A stretch of DNA of 33,043 nucleotides, taken from assembly GCF_016888135.1 (NCBI RefSeq), contig NZ_JACSWB010000208.1, forward strand, positions 1 through 33,043, read 5' to 3'. A program made the translations under genes and the position numbers. This DNA comes from Leptolyngbya sp. CCY15150 (GTDB lineage Bacteria > Cyanobacteriota > Cyanobacteriia > RECH01). Below the pieces are notes generated by a model that saw only the letters and a list, made by a program, of their open reading frames with translations, was not told the DNA's origin and did no database searches. How positions within the stretch are numbered: the stretch's first letter is position 1; each line of letters begins with the position of its first letter. Positions 1,453-10,156 of the stretch are shown here, in pieces.

Positions 1453-2582
1453 GTAGTCGATTGGCTTGTAGCAGCTAAGGGCAACTCATGGATACAGGCG
1501 GGCAGTCGAAATGCAAAGACCGCACCATTCGCTCGGGACTCTGCCCAAATTTTACCGCCGTGGGCTTCCACAATTTGACGGCTTAGATAGAGCCCCAGCC
1601 CTGTTCCTTTAGCTTGGCGATCGCTCTGTCCCTGGTAGAAGCGATCGAACAAATGCGGCAGTTCATCGGCGGGAATACCCTGCCCCTCGTCGATGATACA
1701 GACCTGATAATGACCGTGCTTAGATCCCATGACCACCTGAACAGAACTACCTCGTCGAGAATGATTGACAGCATTGGACAGGAGATTAACCAACACCCGC
1801 GACAGTTGCAAAGCGTCTCCATTAACGCAGTAAGAGCGGCGAAAATCAGAGCTTTCATCGTTCACGCGCAGATGAATCTGGCGCGACGTTGCTAGAGGAA
1901 CCACATCGGCAACGGCTTCCTCTGCCAGGGTGAGCAGATCGAGCTGTTGGCGGTGCAGCTTCAGCCCTTCAGAATCGTTGCGGTAAACGTCCATCAAGGT
2001 TTCAACCAGTTGGAGGGTCTTTTGATGACTTCGGGTCATAACATCAAAGACTCGGCGCTGGGCTAGCGAAACCGCACCAAAATTTTCGCTTCGCAAAGCC
2101 TGTAACGTCTCCAACGCACCCAGCATGGGGGTCTTGAGATCATGGGTTAACGTCGAGACAAAATCTTCCCGCATCTGGGCAAGTTGCTCCTGGGCCTGGA
2201 GTTGTAAGCGTTGCCGAGTAATAGCCTGCTCATAGGCCTGAAGGCGATCGCCCAGCCAACCTGTGACGCCTAGCGCCAGCACCGTAATCACCCGGTTAGC
2301 GACGGTGTCTGGCGCTACTATAACGACCCCTGGAATCAAAAGATTCAATAAAGTAAGAGCGATCGCGATGGCTGTCACCCAAATAGTTGCTCGACGACTG
2401 AGGCGAGTGCTGGCAATCAAAACCGCCCCGACATAGAGATATCCAAACACGTAGGGAGGCGGAGTACTGTACTCCAACAAGATCACCAAGACAAAAATGA
2501 TGCTGATGAGCCAGTGAATACGATGACGGGCTTGGATGAATTGTTCAAAATGTGAAAAAGGTCTAGACCGGGGCATAGGCAA
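1449..2582 (-). CDS. Membrane-bound sensor histidine kinase
   Basis: This 377-residue sensor kinase has an N-terminal membrane region (about 22-112) with roughly four hydrophobic segments and almost no periplasmic loop. A coiled linker (115-138) leads to a HisKA dimerisation domain with the phosphorylated His147 in STLTHDLKTP. The HATPase domain shows the N box (NLLSNAVNHS), G1 box (DEGQGIP) and G2 box (GTGLGLYLSRQIVEAHGG), so it looks catalytically complete. No PAS, GAF or HAMP domain is seen; the stimulus is probably felt in or near the membrane. It is first in a two-gene operon with the NarL-type regulator. The NarL-type partner with a HisKA kinase is a less usual pairing than HisKA_3 kinases. 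Confidence 0.9.
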   Translation of the reverse strand: MPMPRSRPFSHFEQFIQARHRIHWLISIIFVLVILLEYSTPPPYVFGYLYVGAVLIASTRLSRRATIWVTAIAIALTLLNLLIPGVVIVAPDTVANRVITVLALGVTGWLGDRLQAYEQAITRQRLQLQAQEQLAQMREDFVSTLTHDLKTPMLGALETLQALRSENFGAVSLAQRRVFDVMTRSHQKTLQLVETLMDVYRNDSEGLKLHRQQLDLLTLAEEAVADVVPLATSRQIHLRVNDESSDFRRSYCVNGDALQLSRVLVNLLSNAVNHSRRGSSVQVVMGSKHGHYQVCIIDEGQGIPADELPHLFDRFYQGQSDRQAKGTGLGLYLSRQIVEAHGGKIWAESRANGAVFAFRLPACIHELPLAATSQSTT

Positions 2583-2919
2583 GGGTCACGTAATGGTTAG
2601 CAACCAATAATGAGTAACGGTGTCCTAATCAAATCAGATGTCAATCTATGTCCATCTATTTTAAGAGCTGAATAGCCTAAACAAATGAAAATAAATGAAA
2701 TTATATTGGATGATATAGGCGTTTATGAACTTCGCCTAAACGCTTCTAAACGCATCTAGTCCTTTCGTCTAAATCACAAAGTATAAATCTCCCCTAAACG
2801 CCGCTCTATACCTTTTCAAAGCTACTCTGAAGGTGAAATAGTAAAGCTGTTAGTTCTAACTTACTTGTTCTTTGAGATGGAACTAACCTAACACTTGCTG
2901 ATTTCTGGTTTTAACGCTA
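2583..2919. promoter_or_regulatory. Divergent promoter region between the two-component pair and kdp
   Basis: This 337-base AT-rich intergenic region must hold the promoters for the kinase operon (leftward) and the kdp cluster (rightward). It contains a cluster of CTAAACGC-like motifs, listed separately. An inverted repeat, GTTAGTTC at 2849-2856 and GAACTAAC at 2880-2887, lies 32 bases before the first ATG and could be an operator or a leader hairpin. TATA-like hexamers occur (for example TATAAA near 2781), but I cannot assign -35/-10 pairs with confidence. I looked for a ydaO/c-di-AMP riboswitch core and did not see one. Confidence 0.55.
2717..2801. promoter_or_regulatory. Iteron-like cluster of CTAAACGC sites upstream of kdp
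   Basis: CTAAACGC occurs exactly at 2736-2743, 2746-2753 and 2794-2801. The first two are spaced by 10 bases, one helical turn, as 10-base direct repeats. Degenerate versions are at 2756 (CTAGTCC) and 2769 (CTAAAT). An inverted copy, GCGTTTA, lies at 2719-2725. Repeated motifs on one face of the helix upstream of a regulated operon suggest a transcription factor binding array. Candidate binders are the adjacent NarL-type regulator or an OmpR-type regulator encoded elsewhere. Confidence 0.5.
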
Positions 2920-3162
2920 ATGGTTCCCAAAGTAGTTTTACACCAAGTTTATTTCAACAGTGCACATCTTGGTCAAACGCTTCGACAGATAGCCTTACCT
3001 GATGATTGTTATGTGCTGGGTTTGATTCGGGACTCCCACCTGATGATGGTTTGTGAAGACCCCATTTTGCAAGAGCAAGACTGGGTCATAGCTGTTACCC
3101 CAAAGGAGGCATTAGCGCCAGAATTGCAAATTTGTTTGGGAAAAGTTCAAGTACAGTCTTGA
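2920..3162 (+). CDS. Stand-alone RCK_C (TrkA-C)-like small protein
   Basis: This 80-residue protein looks like an isolated RCK_C domain, the regulatory module at the C-terminus of TrkA/KtrA potassium-channel subunits and some transporters. The visible signature is an outgoing strand, then LGQTLRQIALPDDCYVLGLIRD and a DPILQEQDWVIAV segment resembling the G-D-x-V/L core of RCK_C. It has no RCK_N/Rossmann part and no membrane segment, so it is probably cytoplasmic. It lies 16 bases before kdpA and is almost certainly co-transcribed with it. RCK_C domains in other bacteria bind cyclic di-AMP or ions; a role as a Kdp regulator is inference. The ATG at 2920 has no strong ribosome binding site. Confidence 0.65.
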   Translation: MVPKVVLHQVYFNSAHLGQTLRQIALPDDCYVLGLIRDSHLMMVCEDPILQEQDWVIAVTPKEALAPELQICLGKVQVQS

Positions 3163-3178
3163 TGTTTAGGAGTTTTTC

Positions 3179-4873
3179 ATGGCTCAGGGATTTTTTCAGT
3201 TAGCGATCGCTTTAGCGATTTTATTGGCAGTAGCGCCATTCCTCGGCACCTACATGGCGCGAGTGTTCATGGGGCTAAGAACGCTGCTTGACCCAGTAGT
3301 CGGCCCTGTAGAGAGACTGTTGTTCGCTGCCGGCGGCGTTGCACATCAACGGTCTATGACTGGCGGCCAATACATCCGGGCCATTCTGGTGAGCAACCTG
3401 GTGATGGCGACCTTCGTGTTTATTATCTTCATGTTGCAAGGAGGACTGCCGCTCAATCCAACGGCTTTGGACGCACCGAACTGGGACTTAGCGCTACATA
3501 CGGCTATTTCGTTTGTGACCAACACGAACCAGCAGCATTATTCCGGCGAAACCACCTATACTTACTTCTCGCAGGTTGGGGCACTGGGCTTTTTAATGTT
3601 TACCTCAGCAGCAACGGGGATTGCGGTGGCGATCGCCTTCATACGTGGCCTGACGGGGAACGCCCTGGGCAACTTCTACGTTGACCTGACCCTGTCCATT
3701 ACACGGATTCTGCTGCCTATTTCGATCGTAGGGGCGATCGCCCTAGTGATTGCAGGAGTGCCAGAAACCTTTGCTGGCCCTGCCGTTGCTCAAACGCTAG
3801 AAGGGGCAACCCAATATATCGCCCGTGGCCCGGTGGCCCATTTTGAAATTATCAAAGAACTAGGCGAAAACGGCGGCGGCTTCTTCGGCATCAACTCTGC
3901 TCATCCCTACGAAAACCCGAATAACTTCACCAACCTGTTCACCAACATCATCATGCTGGTGATTCCGGCAGGGCTGATTTTGACCTACGGCATCATGGCG
4001 GGCAAACCTCGCCAGGGTTGGCTTATCTTTGGCATGGTATTTATCTTCTACGCCGTCCTGATCGCGATCGCTGCTGTAGGAGAGTTTCAGGGTAATCCTT
4101 TGGTCAACAGCATGTTGGGGGAGCAAGCTCCTAATCTTGAAGGTAAAGAGGTGCGCTTTGGCTGGGCACTTACGGCACTCTGGGCCGTTTCAACCACAGG
4201 AACCATGTGTGGTGCCGTCAACGGAATGCACGATTCCCTGATGCCACCCGGTGGTTTTGCTACCCTCTCAGATATGTTTTTGCAAATCATTTGGGGTGGA
4301 CAAGGTACAGGGACGGCTTATCTATTCGTGTTTCTAATTTTGACCGTGTTTTTAACTGGGTTGATGGTAGGACGCACGCCCGAATTCCTCAGCCGTAAAA
4401 TCGAGAAGCGTGAAATCGTCCTAGCCAGCATCATTTTGCTGGCTCACCCCATCGCCATTCTAATTCCCGGCGCAATTACGTTAGCCTTTCCTGAAACCTT
4501 AGCGGGCATTAGTAACCCTGGCTTCCATGGCATTTCCCAGGTGATTTATGAATATGCCTCCGCTGCCGCTAACAACGGCTCCGGCTTCGAAGGGTTAGGG
4601 GATGACACCCTTTGGTGGAACCTCAGCGCTAGCTTCTCGCTCATCGTGGGTCGCTATATGCCGATTATTGCCCTGATTTATTTAGCCGACAGCATGGCCC
4701 AGAAACAGCCCGTACCAGAAACCGCAGGCACCCTCTACACTGACAGCTTCTTGTTCACAGGCGTAACCGCAGGTACTATTCTTATCCTTGGTGCGTTAAC
4801 GTTCCTGCCTGTGTTGGCGTTGGGGCCAATTGCGGAAGGGTTTGCGATCGCGAAAGCAGCGAGTGGTGGGTAA
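3179..4873 (+). CDS. kdpA: Potassium-transporting ATPase subunit A (KdpA)
   Basis: KdpA is the potassium-binding, channel-like membrane subunit of the high-affinity KdpFABC pump. The 564-residue protein is full length for the family (about 557-565) and has roughly ten membrane segments. The four selectivity-filter-like loops can be seen: [52 protein letters not shown] and [13 protein letters not shown]. The start is preceded by AGGAG with good spacing. It is the second gene of the cluster, 16 bases after the RCK_C-like gene and 71 bases before kdpB. No damage is seen. Confidence 0.97.
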
Positions 4874-4944
4874 GAAAAACGTTCTCACCTGCTACCCCCT
4901 TCCCTGACTCATGCAACCTTTAGTTCTTTCATTTCATAACCGCC

Positions 4945-7032
4945 ATGACCAGTTCTTCTCAAACCCGGCATCAACCCGGTGGCCCTCGCGAAGGGCGACG
5001 ACATACGCCCAAAGTAAACATGTCCGGTCTTTATCAGCGGGCATTCCAAGAGGCATTTTTCAAGCTCGATCCGCGAGTTACCGTGAAAAATCCCGTCATG
5101 TTTGTGGTGTGGGTTGGCACGATCATCACAATTCTGCTCACGTTCAACCCAGGACTATTTGGCCCTGTGCCCGATAATCCGGTGCTGTTCAACGCTTTGA
5201 TTGCCGTCATCCTGTTCTTCACCCTTGTTTTTGCCAACTTTGCCGAAGCCGTAGCCGAAGGTCGCGGTAAGGCTCAGGCTGATGCGCTGCGCTCTACTAA
5301 GTCAGAAACCACAGCTCGCAAAATTTTGGCTGATGGCTCAATCAAAGAAGTGTATTCCACCAGCTTAAGTCGGGGCGATCGCATCAAAGTGATCGCTGGC
5401 GATATCATTCCCGCCGATGGAGAAGTTTTGGATGGAGTAGCGTCCGTGGATGAATCAGCCATCACGGGGGAATCGGCCCCCGTACTGAAGGAAGCAGGTT
5501 CGGATGTTGCCAGCTCTGTCACCGGCGGTACTAAGATTATTTCCGATGAGCTGACAATCCAGGTCACAGCCGATCCGGGTAAGGGCTTTATTGACCGCAT
5601 GATTGCCCTCGTCGAAGGAGCCGAACGCAGCAAAACTCCTAACGAAATTGCCTTGACGGTGCTGCTAGCGGTGTTGACCCTGGTGTTCTTGATTGTGGTA
5701 GTGACCTTGCCAACTCCAGCAGCTTACGTGGACAGTCCAGTCAGCGTGGCTATTCTCATTGCCCTTTTGGTAGCCCTCATCCCCACCACAATCGGTGGCT
5801 TGTTGAGCGCGATCGGCATTGCCGGGATGGATCGCGTGGCGCAGTTCAACGTGGTCGCGACTTCGGGACGAGCGGTCGAAGCCTGCGGCGATATCAACAC
5901 CCTAGTGTTGGATAAAACGGGCACCATTACCTTAGGTAATCGCTTAGCTGAGGAGTTTATTCCTCTCAATGGTCACAGTCCCGATAAAGTCGCTTCTGTG
6001 GCCCTAGCTGCCAGCATCTTTGATACAACCCCCGAAGGTAAATCCATCGTGCGACTGGCACAACAGCAAGGTGCTACCCTGGCATTCGACCAGACAACAG
6101 CGGAAGCAGTGGAATTTTCAGCCCGTACCCGGATGAGCGGAACCAATCTTCCCGATGGCGGCGAAATTCGCAAAGGGGCCGTAGACGCGATTCGCGGCTT
6201 TGTTCGATCCCGTGGCGGCACCGTGCCTGAAGGGCTGGATCAGGCTTTTGAAAAGGTATCTCGTTTAGGCGGTACACCGCTGGCTCTTTGTCAGAACGAT
6301 GACATCTACGGCGTAATCTACCTGAAAGACATCATCAAACCCGGCATTAACGAACGGTTTGACCAACTGCGACGCATGGGGGTTCGCACCGTCATGCTGA
6401 CCGGCGACAACCGGATTACCGCCGAAGTTATCGCACGAGAAGCTGGAGTCGATGACTTTGTCGCCGAAGCCACCCCTGAAGATAAAATCCAGGTTATTCA
6501 AGCCGAGCAGGCAGAAGGTAAGCTGGTGGCGATGACGGGTGACGGCACCAATGATGCTCCTGCTCTAGCCCAGGCCAACGTCGGTTTAGCGATGAACTCC
6601 GGCACCCAGGCTGCCAAGGAAGCTGCCAACATGGTAGACCTCGACTCCGACCCCACCAAGCTCATTGATCTAGTCACCATCGGCAAACAGTTGCTGATTA
6701 CTCGTGGGGCATTGACCACGTTCTCGATCGCCAACGACATTGCCAAATACTTTGCGATTATTCCAGCCATGTTTGCCTCAGCAGGTATCGGCGCACTCAA
6801 CATCATGGGCTTGCATAGTCCCCAATCTGCTGTCCTATCTGCTCTGATCTACAACGCCCTGATCATTCCAGCTCTGATTCCTCTGGCGTTGAAAGGGGTG
6901 CAGTTCCGCCCCCTAACCGCCAATCAACTCCTGCAGCGCAATATGCTGATCTTTGGTTTGGGCGGTGTTATTGCTCCCTTTATTGCCATCAAGTTTATTG
7001 ACCTTATGGTCGGGAATATTGGCTTAGCCTAG
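4945..7032 (+). CDS. kdpB: Potassium-transporting ATPase subunit B (KdpB)
   Basis: KdpB is the P-type ATPase subunit that hydrolyses ATP to drive potassium import through KdpA. The 695-residue protein carries the P-ATPase motifs: TGES at about 174-177 (actuator), DKTGT with the phosphorylated Asp323, MLTGDN, and GDGTNDAP around 532-539 (hinge). The N-terminus has about 25 polar residues ([19 protein letters not shown]) before the conserved region begins, slightly longer than E. coli KdpB. It is positively charged, and the true start could be a few codons later. The ribosome binding site before 4945 is weak. The stop overlaps the ribosome binding site of the next gene, so translation is probably coupled. 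Confidence 0.97.
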
Positions 7033-7045
7033 GAGATTTTGTATC

Positions 7046-7921
7046 ATGACTTTTTCCTCTTCTCAACTCTCGTCAGAGTCCTCAAGCAATCTAGCTCAAC
7101 AGTCTGTTGACCAAGGTTCAAATGTTCAAGTACTCGATCAATCTGAAGCTGATTTGCCAGAGGTTGTCTCGGCAGAAAATGCCACACCGTTTATAAGTAT
7201 TTTGATCGTGCATCACGAAACCGCCACCCGGCTGATGTTGACAGAATTTTTGCAAGCCGAAGGCTATAGCGTCCATTCTGAAGACACCTGGGAAGCTGCG
7301 TTTGAGCAGTTGCAACAACAGCCTATCGACCTAGTAATTTTAGATCTAGCAATTTCTCAAAAGGTCGAAGGAGGGGGACTGAGACAACTGTTGTCACTTT
7401 ATCCCGATACCCGAGTAGTGATGATTTGCGACCATTGCAGCCTAGATGATGCAGTCAATGCCATGAAACAAGGTGCGGTGGACTTAATTCATCAGCCCCA
7501 CGGTTATCTCCAGCACCCCTTGAAAGCTGACCAAATTTGTGCCGTTATCGCTGAAGCACTGAACTGCCCACGATATCGTGTCATGCCTATCGGAAATTTT
7601 GATGAATTAATCGAACTAGCCTACCAGTGCTCTCAGAAAAGAGACTTTGCCCAAGCTCGAAAACTAATAGGCGAAGCAATGAAGCAAGCTCCTGAGCGTC
7701 CAGAGTATTTAACGTTGCTGGGTCTGATTGCTGAATGTGAAAGCGATCGCTTAGAAGCCCTCAAATTCTATCGTGCTGCCCTTGGTCTCGATCCCACATA
7801 TCAACTCGCCGAAGATAACTTACATCGGGCAACGACCAATCTAAAATCTCGTCCCTGTTTTGACGATCCCCTTCCGCTAAAGCATTCGAACGTTCCAACA
7901 TCTCCATGTTCAGATACCTAA
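7046..7921 (+). CDS. Degenerate receiver domain fused to TPR repeats, inside the kdp cluster
   Basis: The 291-residue protein has a polar N-terminal extension (1-48), a receiver-like domain (about 50-172) and one or two TPR units (about 190-270, around ALKFYRAALGLDPTYQLAEDNL). The receiver keeps the phosphoacceptor position (Asp100 in LVILDLAIS). The acidic pair is replaced by His56-His57, the Thr/Ser switch by Cys (VVMICDH) and the invariant Lys by Gln (LIHQPHG). It is therefore a pseudo-receiver, unlikely to be phosphorylated normally, and has no DNA-binding domain. It starts 13 bases after kdpB with AGGAG well placed. It probably acts through protein contacts; a scaffold or regulator of the pump or of KdpD is inference. 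Confidence 0.75.
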   Translation: MTFSSSQLSSESSSNLAQQSVDQGSNVQVLDQSEADLPEVVSAENATPFISILIVHHETATRLMLTEFLQAEGYSVHSEDTWEAAFEQLQQQPIDLVILDLAISQKVEGGGLRQLLSLYPDTRVVMICDHCSLDDAVNAMKQGAVDLIHQPHGYLQHPLKADQICAVIAEALNCPRYRVMPIGNFDELIELAYQCSQKRDFAQARKLIGEAMKQAPERPEYLTLLGLIAECESDRLEALKFYRAALGLDPTYQLAEDNLHRATTNLKSRPCFDDPLPLKHSNVPTSPCSDT

Positions 7922-9040: not shown

Positions 9041-10156
9041 ATGTACAACTCTGCTGCGATCGCCTCTGCTAGCTACCAAAAACCTCATCGCCGAGGTAAG
9101 CATAAAATCTTTATTGGTATGGCACCTGGTGTCGGCAAAACGTATCGAATGCTTGAAGAAGGACATGCCCTTAAGCAAGATGGTGTTGATGTGGTCATTG
9201 GGTTATTAGAAACTCATGCTCGGGAAGAAACTGCCCTGAAAGCAGAAGGTCTGGAGTTGATTCCGCGTAAACAGGTCAATTGTCGGGGAGTCATGCTTCG
9301 AGAAATGGATACCGAAGCCATTTTGAAACGGGCTCCCCAATTAGTATTGGTAGATGAACTCGCTCATACCAATGTGCCAGGCTCTCAGTGGGACAAGCGC
9401 TATCAGGATGTGGAACAGATTCTAGAGGCTGGTATTGACGTTTACTCAACCGTCAATATCCAACATTTGGAAAGCTTAAATGATCTTGTGCATCGTATTT
9501 CTGGGGTAGTGGTGCGAGAGCGCATCCCAGATCGCATCATTGACGAAGCGGATGAAATTGTCGTGGTTGATGTTACCCCAGAAATGCTGCAGGAACGCCT
9601 TCAAGAGGGTAAGATTTATGCCCCCGAAAAGATTGATCAAGCTCTACAAAACTTTTTCCGCCGGAGCAATCTGATTGCCCTGAGAGAGCTGGCGCTGCGA
9701 GAAATTGCTGATAATATTGAGGAGGAATCTGTTTCCACAGGTCAAAATCTTCATTGTAATATTCAAGAGCGCATCTTAGTATGCATTTCAACGTATCCAA
9801 ATTCGATTCAACTCCTGCGGCGTGGTGCCCGAATTGCCAATCAAATGAATGGTCGGTTATTCGTCCTATTTGTTGCCCCTGCAGGTAAATTCTTATCGAA
9901 ACCAGAGACGCTACATATTGAAACCTGCAAACGCCTATGTCAAGAGTTTGAAGGAGAATTTGTTAGGAGAGAATCTTCAGATATTGTGAGTGCGATCGCT
10001 GATATTTCAGACCAAGAACGTATTACACAAATTGTTTTAGGTGAAACTCGTCGTTCCCGATTTCGCCTCTTATTGAAAGGTTCAATTGTGCAACGATTGA
10101 TGCGGGAACTGCCTCAGGTTGACTTACATATTATTTCTAATAACCAACCAGCGTGA
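9041..10156 (+). CDS. kdpD: Truncated KdpD: KdpD sensor domain plus USP domain, no histidine kinase
   Basis: The 371-residue protein matches only the N-terminal part of E. coli KdpD (about 894 residues). The KdpD domain (about 20-230) has a Walker A-like GMAPGVGKT (26-34) and LVDELAHTNVPGS. A USP-like domain follows (about 242-368, ending in a QRLMRELPQVDLHIIS segment). The membrane helices, GAF, HisKA and HATPase parts are absent, and the coding sequence ends cleanly. Short KdpDs of this kind are known from Anabaena and Synechocystis, so this is a cyanobacterial form, not a broken gene. No kdpE is present nearby. In Firmicutes the KdpD USP domain can bind cyclic di-AMP; this copy has not been shown to. 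Confidence 0.93.
   Translation: MYNSAAIASASYQKPHRRGKHKIFIGMAPGVGKTYRMLEEGHALKQDGVDVVIGLLETHAREETALKAEGLELIPRKQVNCRGVMLREMDTEAILKRAPQLVLVDELAHTNVPGSQWDKRYQDVEQILEAGIDVYSTVNIQHLESLNDLVHRISGVVVRERIPDRIIDEADEIVVVDVTPEMLQERLQEGKIYAPEKIDQALQNFFRRSNLIALRELALREIADNIEEESVSTGQNLHCNIQERILVCISTYPNSIQLLRRGARIANQMNGRLFVLFVAPAGKFLSKPETLHIETCKRLCQEFEGEFVRRESSDIVSAIADISDQERITQIVLGETRRSRFRLLLKGSIVQRLMRELPQVDLHIISNNQPA

Follow-up and report, generated by a model that had tools for sequence, protein, structure and literature searches.

In E. coli, the potassium pump operon kdpFABC is controlled by a two-component system, the pair KdpD/KdpE. The KdpE half-sites are reported to be direct repeats, consisting of two AT-rich 6-bp repeats, and the DNA-binding domain of KdpE is a winged helix (PMC3264566). 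A different arrangement is reported for Deinococcus radiodurans: the pair DR_B0081/DR_B0082 is encoded divergently upstream of kdp, KdpD is truncated, and expression of kdp depends on the divergent regulator, which binds to the kdp promoter (PMC5716572). According to the same study, K+ limitation elicits a response from just one of two kdp operons in cyanobacteria; it also cites work on Anabaena sp. L-31 in which a response regulator bound the promoter region of kdp (Ballal and Apte 2008, cited via PMC5716572). In Synechocystis PCC 6803, Hik20/Rre19 (Sll1590/Sll1592) have been called homologous to KdpD/KdpE, and Sll1592 was placed in the NarL subfamily, in passages that give no binding site (PMC7090099). 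That such regulators bind kdp promoters elsewhere is thus partly in print. The site code described below, and its co-occurrence with the regulator, were not found among the titles and opening lines of abstracts covered, which included few subscription papers.

The window, as we call the whole 33,043-nt stretch of Leptolyngbya sp. CCY15150 DNA that was analyzed, contains a 337-bp divergent region (2583–2919) between a histidine kinase gene and a TrkA_C-like gene. On the minus strand, the kinase gene (1449–2582; Pfam HisKA and HATPase_c) is followed by that of its partner, a response regulator (766–1452). Pfam assigned to the regulator a receiver (Response_reg) and a C-terminal GerE/LuxR helix-turn-helix (HTH) domain, the composition of the NarL/FixJ (LuxR-type) family, and no OmpR/KdpE-type winged-helix output domain. 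Among the matches listed, the regulator reached no NCBIfam equivalog cut-off. Conservation over 54 homologues is highest in its HTH (mean 0.81, versus 0.73 for the receiver). Full-length structure matches included VraR (5hev, E 5.2e-33) and NarL (1a04, E 2.8e-26), and the two-domain build is that of the NarL/FixJ regulators of solved structure (VraR, DevR, DesR and NarL), although these are distant in sequence and have different targets.

On the plus strand, the first gene past the array is an open reading frame (ORF) at 2920–3162, an addition to the original prediction, which lies between the array and kdpA. It encodes an 80-residue, stand-alone protein resembling TrkA_C (the RCK C-lobe) with a marginal Pfam score. 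A tblastn match to this protein was seen just upstream of kdpA in 17 of 80 named kdpA loci; its function may be to sense a ligand as a small partner protein of the pump. The gene for KdpA (3179–4873), the first structural gene of the presumed target operon, is followed rightwards by kdpB, a gene for a receiver+TPR protein (7046–7921), an ORF whose end matches KdpF, kdpC and, on the same strand, kdpD (9041–10156), with which the series ends. Only a KdpD sensor domain and a Usp domain were found by Pfam in this KdpD, and no histidine kinase domains; its best NCBIfam match was KdpD_non_kinase, at 446.9 bits, below the cut-off of 550. The locus therefore differs from the E. coli system in having a GerE/LuxR HTH, a different word, more copies spread over ≈100 bp and a KdpD without kinase domains. 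It resembles that of D. radiodurans in the divergent pair and the truncated KdpD, a likeness of layout. For D. radiodurans, a T-rich stretch within 38 bp was proposed as the binding site, and the primer pair printed for it is without CTAAAC (PMC5716572). The response regulator reported at the kdp promoter of Anabaena sp. L-31 is likewise cyanobacterial.

The original prediction was of a phased array of the word CTAAACGC in the divergent region. The three exact copies it claimed are found on the plus strand at 2736–2743, 2746–2753 and 2794–2801, the first two starting 10 bp apart as stated, and the inverted copy lies on the minus strand at 2719–2726, with one mismatch. The additional degenerate copies, CTAAATCA at 2769 and CTATACCT at 2806, are weak by their letters, with three mismatches each. 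When 2583–2919 was shuffled 5000 times with dinucleotides preserved, three exact copies never arose, and four matches at up to one mismatch arose twice. Over the whole window the word was not enriched at up to one mismatch (19 seen, 20.1 expected). Because some 8-mer occurred three times in 259 of the 5000 shuffles of the region, the evidence of the window by itself is no more than moderate. The only exact CTAAACGC-N2-CTAAACGC pair in the 5.75-Mb genome is the one in the array. Two other CTAAACRC pairs were found in this genome (L185 and L186), and the reversed-pattern control of the same search also gave two matches; within 1.5 kb of either pair there was no kdp or pair homologue, except for a weak kdpB-like match in L186.

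The question was settled by comparison with relatives, which confirmed, at the level of sequence, that the array is real and conserved. The top 80 named loci among the kdpA matches listed served as relatives; judged by the closest of them, the window is itself cyanobacterial. A divergent kinase gene stood upstream of kdpA in 58 of them (59 of 81 with the window included), and 57 of these 58 had enough sequence for word counts; L063, L075 and L099, with regions shorter than 120 bp, were left out of the counts. By its own terms, the original prediction would be undone if relatives with the same regulators had no such motif before kdp. Instead, exact CTAAACGC was present in 22 of the 57 linked relatives (28 matches; 300 permuted words averaged 0.4 and never exceeded 4), and 43 of 57 had it with up to one mismatch (91 matches; permuted words, mean 12.5 and maximum 47). 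K-mer counts were preferred to a simple EM fit of a motif, which had drifted towards AT-rich sequence of a generic kind. The counts, made without prior choice of a word, returned CTAAACGC as the most enriched 8-mer, in 22 of 56 de-duplicated regions versus 0.45 expected from 40 shuffles, with CTATACCT and CTATATC variants also near the top. The remaining 14 of 57 lacked a match at up to one mismatch under the 800-bp cut, and one of them, L066, is counted there only through that cut, its copy appearing in the alignment described below. Two contigs labeled as Psychroflexus and Nitriliruptoraceae MAGs (L068 and L099) bear a cyanobacterial-type kdp and pair and are probably misbinned. In another of the 14, a Komarekiella locus (L136), the kinase and regulator persist only as fragments upstream of kdp, and nothing close to the word is left; the array seems to have decayed along with the pair.

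To describe the block as a whole, 14 hand-picked loci with kdpA 78–100% identical to that of the window were aligned, including one from Synechocystis salina. The order of elements is palindrome TATATCANNTGATATAG, CTAAACRC, TATAAA, TAAACRC and CTATACCTTG, with spacing that is almost fixed, and nearly gapless from CTAAACRC onward. The palindromic block falls at 2702–2718, where it is imperfect in the window. It is possibly an inverted pair of CTATATC-type half-sites, and the k-mer CTATATC/GATATAG is enriched in the relatives' regions. Copy 2 (2746) occupies a column kept as CTAAACRC in most of the 14 loci. Copy 1 (2736) belongs to an additional unit of about one helical turn that the window has in common with L061, L062 and L068, the L061 counterpart reading CTAAACAC, and that is absent from the 10 other aligned relatives. 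The TATAAAT block at 2782–2788 (plus strand) contains TATAA, which is invariant in 14 of 14 loci. Copy 3 (2794), the TAAAC block, stands 48 bp from copy 2, a spacing that the relatives keep. The last element, CTATACCTTT at 2806–2815 on the plus strand, reads CTATACCTTG in most relatives and is a candidate for a degenerate half-site joined to a -35 element. In S. salina (L070) the CTAAAC core has been lost and the other blocks are retained. The pair beside kdpA at that locus is homologous to Hik20/Rre19 of PCC 6803, whose genes we likewise take to adjoin kdpA.

Spacing and orientation of TAAAC[GA] were then read across the relatives' regions. Same-strand spacings grouped at 7–12, 18–25, 30–36 and 44–49 bp, with none at 13–17 or 26–29. 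The best period was ≈11.5 bp (R 0.61, n = 61, reached in 0 of 2000 uniform nulls), in a phase test that is inflated, as are the p values given below, because the sequences share ancestry, notably in the 48-bp spacing. The words pointed towards kdp in 117 cases and the opposite way in 46. Several copies at helical-turn spacing, kept upstream of the same gene, are what is expected of a phased direct-repeat operator.

Whether the word follows the regulator was assessed in 19 genomes of 19 loci, comprising 18 loci without a divergent kinase and L136 with its decayed pair. The regulator matches listed split cleanly, with identities of at least 64% or at most 41%. Left out of the groups, from 20 loci without a divergent kinase, were L079, which has a contig break beside the pair, the short L095 and L116, whose genomes were outside the regulator search, and L124, where the regulator is linked and the kinase was not found. 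In genomes without a regulator orthologue, none of seven kdpA loci had the exact word, and two of seven had a near match. By contrast, the exact word was present at all four loci from which the pair has moved away (L091, L106, L134 and L138), which represent about two lineages. Second kdp copies, in genomes where the pair adjoins a different kdpA, had the exact word in none of five cases and a near match in one. This contrast is weak, because the pair-linked copies of the same genomes, readable in four, were also without the exact word (0/4; near matches in three; nine CTAWAY versus 7.1 expected). The exact word is therefore a marker in some cyanobacteria; in these heterocystous relatives, either the sites have diverged or the reading fails.

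Comparing linked and moved loci with the no-regulator and second-copy groups by Fisher's test gave p = 0.003 for the exact word and 0.001 for near matches, and about 0.03, calculated by hand, for the exact word against the no-regulator group alone, all subject to the inflation just mentioned. The looser half-site CTAWAY was counted 211 times (64.5 expected) at those 43 linked loci where a near match was present and 51 times (28.3 expected) at the 14 where it was not; the counts were 28 versus 7.2 in the moved-pair loci, 22 versus 17.8 in the no-regulator loci and 12 versus 15.1 in the second kdp copies. The word thus tends, in these sequences, to track the presence of the regulator in the genome. 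Conservation and co-occurrence together support the link that the original prediction suggested, through a regulator array upstream of kdp, between the NarL-type regulator and potassium uptake.

The moved pairs also show where the array stays. L091 and L106 overlap the stretches bearing their pairs, placing them on the same contig as the array; the kinase genes start ≈6 and 7.6 kb from kdpA and are still divergent, so DNA has been inserted between array and pair. At both loci the array adjoins kdpA, and none was seen in the 500 bp before the kinase gene. In the L134 genome, where 460 bp upstream of kdpA could be read, the pair lies on another contig, with array-like words before the kinase gene. 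In L138, the pair was absent from the 4.1 kb read upstream of kdpA.

A sequence-only model of the block was searched against 388 genomes and found 42 places in 41 genomes at E ≤ 0.01, with a single one, at kdp, in the window's own genome. At the top 30 loci, the kinase was within 1.5 kb in 30 of 30 and kdpA or a piece of it in 28; 12 of the 30 were training loci, and among the 18 others the kinase was found in all 18 and kdpA in 16. The two without kdpA were L245, at a contig end, and the L235/L249 operon. In L249, a 645-residue kinase and a 218-residue protein related to the receiver+TPR protein lie between array and kdpA (2668–5251), which, with the receiver+TPR protein of the window, hints at a second phosphorelay tied to kdp. 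Eight of 12 further places were just upstream of kdpA by their coordinates. The 12 also include G084, which adjoins the pair and a kdpA piece, G303, which repeats a locus already counted, and two weak places off the listed kdpA contigs (G276, E 0.0035; G327, E 0.0056). Since the block is almost always at the kinase and kdp, the regulon looks close to kdp alone, as far as this layout is concerned; sites of other layout would escape the model. Three loci carry kdpA pieces followed by a kdpC or kdpD piece (L250, 6508–9618; L251, 5227–6297; L254, 2518–4413) and retain kinase and block, with a regulator match in two of the three; these are either decaying operons or assembly gaps.

In the genome scan for direct repeats that was suggested with the original prediction, pairs of the exact word at gaps of 1–30 were found in 59 of the 388 genomes, but many were not at kdp, some were tandem repeats, and the reversed-pattern control appeared about as frequent by eye; word pairs alone therefore define no regulon. 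At start-to-start spacings of 9–11, 7 of 14 places among the matches listed lie before kdpA (G000, G392, G222, G317, G133, G306 and G344). At five, neither kdp nor the pair had a homologue within 1.5 kb (two overlapping in G021, and one each in G136, G225 and G188), the neighborhoods of G026 and G146 being excluded.

We consider it probable that the array is the kdp operator and that it is read by the adjacent NarL-type regulator rather than by an OmpR-type KdpE. The half-sites would be CTAWAY, with CTAAACGC as the strongest form and CTATACC and CTATATC as variants. They would be arranged mostly as direct repeats ≈11 bp or multiples thereof apart, and therefore on the same side of the double helix; an inverted pair would lie upstream of them. 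The kinase would phosphorylate the regulator, presumably at low K+, and regulator dimers would bind the array directly and activate rather than repress kdp, by bringing RNA polymerase to its promoter. A candidate promoter lies at 2813–2842 on the plus strand (TTTTCA at 2813–2818, an 18-bp spacer and AATAGT at 2837–2842). This weak candidate was missed by the promoter scan. Its -35 may overlap the last half-site: it comes straight after CTATACC and reads TTGTCA in L061, L062, L064 and L068, and the -10 reads GATAAT in L064. A second conserved block, at 2638–2650 near the kinase gene, has TTTGTCAATC in 7 of 56 regions (0.05 expected), and its minus-strand TTGACA is a candidate -35 of the kinase promoter. 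With such a mechanism, the NarL-type pair would stand in for KdpE, and KdpD would persist without its kinase domains.

Another factor, for example a global one, might read the array for kdp, with the neighboring pair as a passenger. The pair-linked copies in the four two-kdp genomes are not clearly richer in half-sites than chance. Nevertheless, the exact word is missing from all seven loci without the regulator and present at all four where it is in the genome and not adjacent, and the block's single occurrence in its own genome is unlike a global regulator's site; we regard such a factor as unlikely. Still less probable is that the array mainly serves the kinase–regulator promoter in autoregulation. 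It does lie in a shared divergent region, and the relocated pair of the L134 genome has array-like words before the kinase gene, but L091 and L106 keep the array beside kdpA with none before the kinase, and the words point predominantly towards kdp.

There is precedent for control of kdp through RNA: in Bacillus thuringiensis, kdp is reported to be under a c-di-AMP riboswitch (PMC6488665). That the conserved block acts as a riboswitch or structured leader of kdp is nonetheless very unlikely: copies are found in both orientations and at helical intervals, as for DNA sites, and covariance-model searches of 2400–3300 gave no riboswitch, with nothing in Rfam matching even at E values up to 1. That an 8-mer was repeated by chance within a single intergenic region could draw on the frequency of tripled 8-mers in the shuffles, but is already contradicted by conservation at fixed spacing in many cyanobacterial genera, and its probability is negligible.

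If the regulator does read the array, a broader and more tentative picture, which we hold to be possible though doubtful, is that cyanobacteria have rewired kdp. The NarL-type pair would have replaced KdpE, and KdpD would now be a kinase-less sensor; the operator would be a one-faced CTAWAY array whose half-sites shift in number and spacing by whole helical turns from one lineage to the next, and the regulon would have nearly a single target, kdp and possibly the pair itself. It would follow that, of two kdp operons, the array-bearing one should respond to K+ limitation. The CTAAAC/CTAWAY array is a testable DNA code for kdp regulation in cyanobacteria, and offers a prediction of which kdp operons fall under the pair. 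If true, this would show how a conserved operon can pass from one regulator family to another and still retain a portion of its former sensor protein.
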